Assembly (NCBI GenBank): GCA_005788815.1
Contig: SYAZ01000002.1
Span: 1 to 64,000, forward strand
Direction: 5' to 3'
Length of the DNA stretch: 64,000 bases
From: Actinomycetota bacterium
GTDB lineage: Bacteria; Actinomycetota; Acidimicrobiia; Acidimicrobiales; Ilumatobacteraceae
In this document: positions 7,705 through 49,413 of the stretch, piece by piece
Layout of the letters: the number at the start of each line of letters is the position of its first letter
Numbering within the stretch: position 1 is the first letter of the stretch
Program-made: the position numbers and the translations under genes
Notes under the pieces: model-generated
Told to the model about the DNA's origin: nothing
Database searches by the model: none
Seen by the model: the letters and a program-made list of their open reading frames with translations, nothing else

Positions 7705-7846
7705 CTTGGCGCCCTACACCAGGGTGAGCAGGCGCTTTGTGAATCACACAGGTGTAGTTCTCAACACGGTTATCCACACTCTGGGGAAAACCTTCTGCCC
7801 TTGCCCGACTTAGGTCTCTGCACTCTTTTACACTTCTCATATTCAT

Positions 7847-28022: not shown

Positions 28023-28308
28023 AGTCGTACTTTCATGCTCTGTGGTTCATTGTATGACGAAGCGATTACCGGAACCGAGAAGTGATGTATATGTTTAATA
28101 GTGGTAATAAGTGCTGTGGATTGTGGACAGCGACCGATTGAGCCTTGCGCACGTTGAAAAGGCCATGTGTACGGCGAACCCCCCATACGCACAGGTTGCA
28201 CGCTTGCAACTTGTGTAGTTGTGGAGAACCCCATAGTTGTCCCCGACCCCTCACAGGCAGTCCACATGGTCATCCCCATGAGATTCACAGGCCCGTGTGT
28301 CATCGCAA
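28023..28308. other. dnaA-dnaN intergenic region, candidate oriC half
   Basis: Short AT-rich tract (tgtatatgtttaatagtggtaataa, about 28086-28110) followed by degenerate DnaA-like elements gtgctgtggattgtggacag and ttgtggagaa. Confidence 0.45.
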
Positions 28309-29670: not shown

Positions 29671-29800
29671 TTCCGCCTCCTAAAGTCTCGTCCACAGCAC
29701 TATCCACAGGGTGTGGACGACTGGCTAGCAGATGTTGCTAGGGAATGTGACCGTAGCAGGAACTGTGGATATCCAAAAAATGAACCGGCCCCCGGCTTTG
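29671..29800. other. dnaA-rpmH intergenic DnaA-box cluster, candidate oriC
   Basis: TCGTCCACA (29688-29696), CTATCCACA (29700-29708), TGTGGACGA (29712-29720), TGTGGATAT (29764-29772), each 1-2 mismatches from TTATNCACA. Confidence 0.55.
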
Positions 29801-33032: not shown

Positions 33033-33043
33033 GGACTCCATAA

Positions 33044-33141
33044 TGTTTCACGTGAAACATGGGCGAGAGTAAAAACCTTCAGATGTTTCACGTGAAACAT
33101 TCCCCGACAGGCCCTCCTGATGAGATGTTCCACGTGAAACA
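33044..33141. promoter_or_regulatory. parS cluster: TGTTTCACGTGAAACA at 33044-33059 and 33084-33099, TGTTCCACGTGAAACA at 33126-33141
   Basis: Exact match (x2) and single-mismatch match (x1) to the universal parS palindrome, upstream of parAB. Confidence 0.97.
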
Positions 33142-33228
33142 TGTAGTCCTATCCACCAGTTTTCCACAGGCCGCACCTATGATGACGGGTATCGCATCCC
33201 ATTGCTGTCGAGCAGGAGAGAGAATTCC

Positions 33229-34023: not shown

Positions 34024-34936
34024 GGGATTATCCACTCTCATTCCTACTGAGAGAACTGAAAAGCCCGCGGAGCCTGCAACGGCTGCACCGGCAACACCAC
34101 GAGCCGCACCAGCAGAAGAACTGCCTGCATCTGCCTTGCGCGACGTTGCTATCGATGCCATCGTGCCAAACCCACATCAGCCGCGTGTTCATTTCGATGA
34201 AGACTCGCTGAGCGATCTGGCCAAATCAATCAAAGAGATTGGCGTTCTTCAGCCTTTGTTGGTGCAAGAGACGTCACCAGGGAAATACCAACTTATTGCG
34301 GGTGAACGACGTTGGCGTGCAGCACAGCGGGCCAAGCTCGCTGTTGTGCCCGTGGTGGTGCGCAAGATCAGTGAACTGGGCTCGGTAGAACAAGCATTGG
34401 TGGAGAATCTTCACCGACAGGACCTCACCGCACTGGAAGAGGCATCGGCGTATCAACAACTGGCCGACGACTTCGACCTCACGCACGATCAGATTGCAAA
34501 GCGTGTGGGCAAGAACCGCACCACGATTACCAACGCGCTTCGTCTGCTGCAATTACCTGCCGCCGTGCAGGGGTACCTTGCCGATGGGCGATTGGCAGCG
34601 GGTCATGCACGGGCATTGCTGTCGTGCAGCGACACGAAAGTAATGGAACAACTGGCGGCCTCTGCTGTGGCCGAGGGTTGGTCGGTACGTGCTGTTGAAG
34701 TAGCTGTGAAAGAGGGAGTCTCTGCCAAGGGTAAGACCAACCCGGGCAAGGGAACCGGTGGTACTACGGGCATGAAGCCAGCTGGGCTATTGGAACTGGA
34801 GAATCTTTTGGCCGAGTTCCTTGACACCAAAGTGGGCGTCTCCATGAATGACAAACGCGGGCGTATCACCGTGGACTTTGCAGACCTCATCGATCTCGAG
34901 CGAATTTATCGCCGAATGGTCGAGGGAATAGAGTAA
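33998..34936 (+). CDS. parB: Chromosome partitioning protein ParB
   Basis: IVPNPHQPRVHFDEDSLSDLAKSIKEIGVLQPLLVQ, YQLIAGERRWRAAQRA, VGKNRTTITNALRLLQLP. Confidence 0.96.
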   Translation: MAEKRKLGRGLSTLIPTERTEKPAEPATAAPATPRAAPAEELPASALRDVAIDAIVPNPHQPRVHFDEDSLSDLAKSIKEIGVLQPLLVQETSPGKYQLIAGERRWRAAQRAKLAVVPVVVRKISELGSVEQALVENLHRQDLTALEEASAYQQLADDFDLTHDQIAKRVGKNRTTITNALRLLQLPAAVQGYLADGRLAAGHARALLSCSDTKVMEQLAASAVAEGWSVRAVEVAVKEGVSAKGKTNPGKGTGGTTGMKPAGLLELENLLAEFLDTKVGVSMNDKRGRITVDFADLIDLERIYRRMVEGIE

Positions 34937-35039
34937 AAACAACTTAAATTACGACGGTGTAGTTATCCACAAAACACTCACTCTCAACTGTGCGTTTAAG
35001 GTTGAATGTTATGCACACCTGTGGATTGGTTGTGGATAA
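34937..35039. promoter_or_regulatory. DnaA-box cluster in convergent intergenic region: TTATCCACA 34963-34971, TTATGCACA 35009-35017, TGTGGATAA 35031-35039, near-match TGTGGATTG 35020-35028
   Basis: Direct reading; three sites match TTATNCACA exactly. Confidence 0.75.
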
Positions 35040-35978
35040 CTAGATCTCAGTAGCGGGATTCTCGCGCCATGCATCGAGCGCATCACAAATTGCTGTTGAA
35101 ACAGCATTTGTTTTCAATGACACCACTTCATGTGGCCCCATCGAACACAACACAGCGGTCATTCGTGTTTCACGCAACACCGGGTGACGCACACCAAGAG
35201 TCTGCACGTGTATCTCTGGCGCACGAGCAGAGATCGCAGCAGCAATCCGCAATGCAAGATTGCGACCACCCACACTGCAAAACGTTGGAACTTCGTAATA
35301 GTAAATAGTGCAGCCCGCATCATCGGTACTTTCACATCCGATGTACACATCAGCTTGATATGCATTTGCAGCTTTCGCCTGTTCTGATGCAGTGAAGTCA
35401 ACAGTGCTTGTCAGTGGGTGAGATTCTTTTGCACGACGAACAATTGCAGAGGCAAGTGGAGCACCACCAGTGAAATAACCAACCACTAGTCGAAGTGAAT
35501 CATTAACAACATCGTCTGATAACGCCAGACCTTCACGTACAACTGCAACACCCGGGCCATCCCCAGTTTGCGAACCCATACGCTTCAAAACATCAATGAA
35601 TTCGGGCGTACTGATGCCATTTCGTGGTGATCCAATATTTTCTTGAAACTCCGCAACAGCCTCCGAAGTCCGCGGACCATAGATGCCATCAACACGTCCA
35701 CAATCAAAACCGAGCCGATTGAGCAGTGATTGCAGACTTGCTACATCGTCACCACGAATGTTGGGAGAACGAAGAAACAACAATCGCTCACCAAGAGTCC
35801 AACTGGCTTCAATCAGTGATGACCACACTTGCTCATCACACTCACCAGTGGTAGATAGACCATATAAATCTTGAAATGCCAATAATGCGGCGTGTGTACG
35901 CGCGCAGAAAGTGGAGTCTTCGGCAGAACCCGGTGCAAGGAAACCTGCTGCGGACAAACGACGCTGCAGATCATGCAC
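35040..35978 (-). CDS. CwlM-like protein: two PG_binding_1 domains plus degenerate Amidase_3 fold
   Basis: LRSPNIRGDDVASLQSLLNRLGFDCGRVDGIYGPRTSEAVAEFQ; C-terminal IHVQTLGVRHPVLRETRMTAVLCSMGP aligns with Amidase_3 VLR..MPAVLVELGF but lacks catalytic residues; locus trxB-trxA-cwlM-parB. Confidence 0.75.
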   Translation of the reverse strand: MHDLQRRLSAAGFLAPGSAEDSTFCARTHAALLAFQDLYGLSTTGECDEQVWSSLIEASWTLGERLLFLRSPNIRGDDVASLQSLLNRLGFDCGRVDGIYGPRTSEAVAEFQENIGSPRNGISTPEFIDVLKRMGSQTGDGPGVAVVREGLALSDDVVNDSLRLVVGYFTGGAPLASAIVRRAKESHPLTSTVDFTASEQAKAANAYQADVYIGCESTDDAGCTIYYYEVPTFCSVGGRNLALRIAAAISARAPEIHVQTLGVRHPVLRETRMTAVLCSMGPHEVVSLKTNAVSTAICDALDAWRENPATEI

Positions 35979-49332: not shown

Positions 49333-49413
49333 TTATCCACAGGCTTGGGCTGTTGTCCCCAGCCGAATCCACAGCTATTTCGCAGGGTTATCCACTAGCA
49401 ATCCACAGGCATT
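49333..49413. promoter_or_regulatory. DnaA-box cluster upstream of dnaB: TTATCCACA 49333-49341, TTATCCACT 49388-49396, plus AATCCACA elements
   Basis: Direct reading of rplI-dnaB intergenic sequence. Confidence 0.6.

Follow-up and report, generated by a model that had tools for sequence, protein, structure and literature searches.

In the 64,000-nucleotide stretch of DNA analyzed here (the window), the gap between parB and a convergent cwlM-like gene contains a triple of DnaA boxes, the geometry of which is maintained at this position in most examined genomes of the order Acidimicrobiales. The gap very probably harbors some kind of control element to which DnaA binds. We tentatively prefer the reading that this putative element acts outside oriC and adjusts how much active DnaA is available, with DARS-like nucleotide exchange as the most likely means; the DARS-like mechanism, taken by itself, is put forward with still more reserve.

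Results

The parB-cwlM gap contains a dense cluster of DnaA boxes

The intergenic gap (positions 34937-35039) comprises 103 bp between two reading frames that stop at 34936 (+) and 35040 (−). Its upstream neighbor, parB, encodes ParB_N and HTH_ParB domains (Pfam), and the convergent cwlM-like gene (35040-35978) encodes two PG_binding_1 domains; in the Pfam search, the C-terminal half of the latter protein gave no match, and no amidase domain was detected. Neither a sigma-70-like promoter nor an intrinsic-terminator-like site was found in the gap, in line with its initial annotation as convergent and promoterless. Because the gap is convergent, the site cannot act as a promoter.

Three perfect DnaA boxes and a near match had been described in this region. 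The perfect boxes were found at 34963-34971 (+), 35009-35017 (+), and 35031-35039 (−), and the near match corresponds to a fourth box, CAATCCACA, at 35020-35028 (−). Three of the four form the conserved triple: box I (TTATGCACA, 35009-35017, +), box II (the near match, positioned head-to-head with box I), and box III (TTATCCACA, 35031-35039, −), which is positioned head-to-tail with box II and is the most conserved box. The extra box at 34963-34971, here named box 0, is also TTATCCACA; a comparable outer box is present in the close relatives of the window and absent from most other genera. Together, the outer boxes 0 and III form a perfect 13-bp inverted repeat (34960-34972/35030-35042).

Exact TTATNCACA occurs eight times in the window, versus 1.58 times expected from shuffled sequences, none of which reached eight. 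Three of these eight copies fall in the parB gap, which is the densest 250-bp cluster of DnaA boxes in the window. The gap is located 5.3 kb from the dnaA start, and its distance to three parS-like sites (two copies of TGTTTCACGTGAAACA and one of TGTTCCACGTGAAACA, 33040-33143) is about 1.8-1.9 kb. Both values match the earlier estimates of about 5 and 2 kb. The boxes had also been judged better than those at dnaA. This holds for the window genome, the dnaA flanks of which contain no perfect TTATCCACA or TTGTCCACA and only boxes with one mismatch; it does not hold as a general rule, since perfect DnaA boxes are present in the rpmH-dnaA gap of relatives.

Orientation and spacing of the triple are fixed

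For comparison, parB loci were gathered from genomes within the family and from 80 named contigs, and were mapped together with dnaN, dnaA, rpmH, parA, cwlM, and trxA. DnaA boxes are present between parB and cwlM in nearly all related loci, typically in the layout ...GAGGGTTACGCACA-(2–3)-nGTGGAYAA-nCC-TGTGGATAA.... When 39 non-redundant sites were aligned at box III, boxes were clearly enriched only at −24/−23 on the plus strand and at −12/−11 on the minus strand. The triple can thus be written as I(+)–11/12–II(−)–11/12–III(−), with start-to-start distances in bp and with box I opposed to boxes II and III. The spacing is 12/12 in 30 of 51 non-redundant sites and 11/11 in the close relatives of the window. 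The window's own genus likewise shows 11/11, with two mismatches in box II.

The +−− arrangement with 11-12/11-12 spacing scored 21.4, versus 13.6 in Markov-shuffled gaps, and the same orientation with a spacing of 8–9 or 15–16 bp scored 14.8–15.1. Within its own 7.5-kb locus, the gap triple was the best-scoring position in 25 of 42 loci and among the top three in 38, and the triple of the window ranked first among 127,984 positions. In some relatives, it is shifted into the 3' end of cwlM. TGAGGG/CCCTCA motifs symmetrically flank the triple in many genera (window positions 34990-35043 and relatives).

These flanking motifs, which are conserved in many genomes, would suit a site for another protein that merely resembles DnaA boxes, if the cluster is not due to chance. 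We consider either case very unlikely, given that one position and one spacing are conserved throughout the order (see below) and that exact TTATCCACA is the most constant part of the conserved site.

The parB-side copy looks like a trait of the order

A strict degenerate pattern of the triple gave only three matches in 296 genomes of the class, all of them 3' of parB. This pattern was too tight, and we therefore built a sequence-only profile, named R1, from 38 sites and ran it on 119 genomes of the class. R1 matches were compared by eye with the positions of parB and dnaA; the matches listed under the stricter filters used give lower bounds for presence and do not prove absence. In the window, the best R1 match (35001-35043, +) scored 28.0 bits, with E values of 8e-8 in the window and 2e-6 in the whole metagenome-assembled genome (MAG).

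Within the order, an R1 match lies no more than about 250 bp 3' of parB in at least 33 of 40 genomes. Conservation of the boxes in related genomes, which had been proposed as a check in the initial annotation, was thereby confirmed. The parB-side match is usually the best one genome-wide; the runner-up usually lies immediately upstream of dnaA and is inverted. The rate in the window's own family is partly given by construction, because the 38 training sites include some of those genomes; the other families of the order, with a parB-3' match in 20 of 26 genomes, are a more independent subset, although a few named training contigs may come from them. Seven contigs with acidimicrobial-type parB/dnaA loci (L038, L039, L043, L047, L049, L068, and L077) are titled "Bifidobacterium breve"; these titles look wrong.

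The R1 matches listed for 79 genomes of other orders are located upstream of dnaA or elsewhere and in no case 3' of parB; in at least five or six genomes, a match is found near genes for a pabA-like amidotransferase and a thiolase. For genomes of other classes, none of the listed matches lies directly 3' of parB either, and those near parB are kilobases away, nearly all of them on the dnaA side. Since parB-3' matches are confined to the order in the listed matches, the parB-side copy looks like a trait of the Acidimicrobiales; the copy at dnaA is wider than the order.

Further copies of the triple are present in the window

A second copy of the triple is located in the rpmH-dnaA gap (29688-29720, −), in opposite orientation and with 12/12 spacing. 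It consists of box I at 29712-29720 (−), box II at 29700-29708 (+), and box III at 29688-29696 (+). Such an inverted three-box arrangement upstream of dnaA was found throughout the class, as well as in some actinobacterial loci beyond it, and may serve dnaA autoregulation or oriC.

A third, weaker copy (7758-7790, −) follows the 3' end of a crgA-like reading frame and precedes copC/copD. Its boxes are I at 7782-7790 (−, TTTTCCCCA), II at 7770-7778 (+, TTATCCACA), and III at 7758-7766 (+, TTCTCAACA). This copy is near a pabA-like gene and a thiolase gene, and in other orders of the class, a second R1 site is located in the same gene neighborhood (for example, in L139, L141, L144, and L154). The shared location suggests that the crgA/pabA/thiolase-side site is a second ancestral extra-oriC DnaA site. 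Another pair of boxes on the same strand, TTATCCACA and TTATCCACT, 55 bp apart, was detected at 49333-49396. Altogether, the window has several DnaA-box clusters within 30 kb of the origin.

The recurrence of the triple bears on a role in transcription. With only 103 bp between the convergent genes and no intrinsic-terminator-like site in the gap, DnaA bound there might act as a roadblock or terminator that separates the parB and cwlM transcripts. The inverted repeat of the outer boxes would fit such a function, and so would RNA folding, since folding of the gap exceeds that of shuffled sequences, modestly for the window (z about −2.2) and clearly for one relative (z −3.3 to −3.7). However, no RNA fold signal was obtained for the gap in another genus, the copies upstream of dnaA and in the crgA-side gap stand in different transcription contexts, and in some relatives the triple has moved into the 3' end of cwlM. 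We therefore regard the roadblock as improbable.

The origin is predicted in the dnaA-dnaN gap

It had been suggested that the parB gap could be the real oriC or a part of it. We scanned in parallel for a DnaA box followed by a spacer and DnaA-trios. In the dnaA-dnaN gap, this revealed a probable oriC unwinding element (28095-28130, −) with tandem boxes (CTGTCCACAATCCACA), a GCAC spacer, and the DnaA-trio-like sequence TTATTACCACTATTAA; an AT-rich stretch is present in the same gap. In the window and in most relatives examined, this position has tandem boxes that overlap, together with a spacer containing GC and a run resembling DnaA-trios, for example, TTGTGCACAATCCACA-GCCC-TTATTACTACTACTA in locus L061. 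The element fits the published unwinding element, which consists of a DnaA box, a short spacer, and DnaA-trios (PMC8287927). The same scan of the parB gap detected neither a trio element nor an unwinding region.

GC skew, which had been proposed as a further check, was not decisive for the MAG on its own: in the window MAG and in G038, G019, and the complete genome G012, the noise of the cumulative skew kept the origin from being localized to within 10 kb, and fourfold-site skew tracked the gene strand and did not separate the replication strands near the origin. A clear result was obtained with G072, a complete genome of the same order (one contig of 2,158,157 bases) that carries the parB-side triple as TTGTGCACA-GG-TGTGCACAA-CCC-TGTGGATTG. 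Here, the change point of the skew was placed at +1.5 kb (95% about +1.0 to +3.0 kb), in the dnaA-dnaN gap. Moving it to the parB-side site (−8.1 kb, about 9 kb from dnaA-dnaN) raised −2 ln L by 48.5 units and was rejected.

The parB gap has the best DnaA boxes of the window and is near dnaA and parS, and the coarse skew of the MAG alone is not decisive. Nevertheless, it is highly improbable that it serves as the chromosomal origin or as an essential half of a bipartite oriC. The trio element, the AT-rich stretch, and the skew change point of G072 are all located at dnaA-dnaN, and an origin in a convergent gap would drive both forks head-on into transcription. The suggestion of a real oriC at parB was thus abandoned.

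The triple has the orientation of the DARS core

To compare the triple with sites of Escherichia coli, a common template was used (I–II, 11–14 bp; II–III, 11–12 bp; maximum score, 27). DARS1 and DARS2 were located via their gene neighborhood and the published layout, not via annotation. The boxes start at 813107 (+), 813121 (−), and 813133 (−) in DARS1 and at 2969135 (+), 2969149 (−), and 2969161 (−) in DARS2, and the spacing is 14/12 in both. The template scores (weakest box in brackets) were 25 (8) for DARS1, 24 (8) for DARS2, 21 (5) for datA, and 19 (4) for oriC. In the window, they were 25 (7) for the parB gap, 24 (7) for the crgA-side gap, 22 (7) for the rpmH-dnaA gap, and 20 (6) for the dnaA-dnaN gap. 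No triple comparable to these sites was found in E. coli oriC and datA when they were scanned with this template. The window sites thus share the box orientation of the DARS core, which is absent from E. coli oriC and datA; their boxes I and II are closer together.

In DARS, box I is opposite in orientation to boxes II and III (PMC5742627), as in the parB-gap triple. The 14/12 start-to-start spacing is not reproduced: the I–II distance is 11-12 bp, and the II–III distance is 11-12 bp (12 bp in most genera). For this reason, we classify the site only as DARS-like and not as a member of DARS.

Discussion

The initial annotation had proposed, besides an origin, a titration or reactivation element comparable to datA or DARS. 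In kind, this proposal agrees with the order-wide conservation, the promoterless convergent gap, the DARS-core orientation, and the similar II–III spacing; the mechanism is not proven by these data. According to our working model, DnaA would bind the fixed array formed by box I and the opposing boxes II and III, with two molecules head-to-head on boxes I and II and a third one stacked head-to-tail on box III. E. coli DARS uses a like arrangement, from which ADP-DnaA releases ADP and is recharged with ATP. The parB site would do likewise and would thus tune the pool of active DnaA and possibly the timing of initiation. Being about 7 kb from the dnaA-dnaN origin, the site is expected to be copied very soon after initiation.

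It is the head-to-head geometry that leads us to favor a DARS-like role. In DARS, head-to-head boxes I and II are essential for ADP release, and box III is stimulatory (PMC10380432; PMC8682772). The same triple is also present upstream of dnaA, where it could serve autoregulation or origin function, so that extra-oriC sites are not the only ones with this arrangement.

Titration is nearly as likely as a DARS-like role. A datA-like cluster, or one like those of Bacillus subtilis and Streptomyces, could soak up DnaA once the cluster has doubled in copy number shortly after initiation and so delay re-initiation, and the geometry would then matter only for cooperative binding. What was found in the gap is consistent with such a cluster: the boxes lie near but outside oriC, at a conserved position that is replicated early. 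Moreover, the convergent 3'-3' gap resembles datA, which is downstream of both glyVXY and queG, and several other box clusters are present within 30 kb of the window origin. Clusters near oriC repress untimely initiation in B. subtilis and S. coelicolor (PMC4585315; PMC13220808), and in E. coli, boxes near oriC favor titration (PMC12371093). However, titration alone would not demand that one orientation and spacing be kept order-wide, datA itself lacks the triple arrangement, and three or four boxes are few for this purpose. We therefore consider titration or inactivation a possible but not a preferred function.

To our knowledge, DnaA-recharging sites are so far known only from proteobacteria. 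It is possible, but on present evidence rather doubtful, that the Acidimicrobiales as an order use a DARS-type DnaA-recharging element in which box I stands head-to-head to boxes II/III at 11-12 bp, which is placed next to parB less than 10 kb from oriC, and which is duplicated upstream of dnaA. If this is true, reactivation of the initiator is no proteobacterial specialty, and the site would be placed near the origin, with the segregation genes on one side and the rest of the chromosome on the other. According to a 2026 review (PMC13220808), DARS and datA are missing from B. subtilis, and such regulators are unknown there. For the question of how Gram-positive bacteria balance ATP-DnaA and ADP-DnaA, the order-wide, near-DARS triple is a short, directly testable piece of DNA. 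Since the neighboring orders lack the triple at the parB-3' position among their listed matches, they offer a naturally clean comparison.

Among known systems, the oriC arrays and the basal unwinding system share with the parB gap the DnaA boxes, and the same triple is also present in the rpmH-dnaA gap; in contrast to them, no DnaA-trios or unwinding region were found in the parB gap. The extra-oriC clusters of B. subtilis and S. coelicolor are likewise Gram-positive boxes outside the origin that are thought to limit free DnaA, but no fixed three-box geometry is reported for them in the literature we found. As in datA, the DnaA boxes at parB are clustered in an intergenic gap into which two genes converge with their 3' ends. 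The box arrangement of datA, which is accompanied by an IHF site, does not match the triple template, and the distance to the origin is much shorter for the parB site.

DARS2 additionally carries a regulatory region that binds IHF and Fis. The DARS1/DARS2 core differs from the parB-gap triple in its I–II distance of 14 bp instead of 11-12 bp, a difference that would rotate the DnaA molecules on boxes I and II against each other by roughly 70-100 degrees in comparison with DARS. Furthermore, the parB site is about 7 kb from the origin and not far away, and its host is an actinobacterium. Shared with the DARS core are the non-coding location, the three boxes with box I opposite to boxes II and III, and the II–III distance of 12 bp in most genera (11 bp in that of the window). 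The window's DnaA also has equivalents of Asp269 and Leu290, two residues that are tied to DARS function (PMC5742627) and that, being perhaps conserved in DnaA generally, discriminate weakly for DARS.
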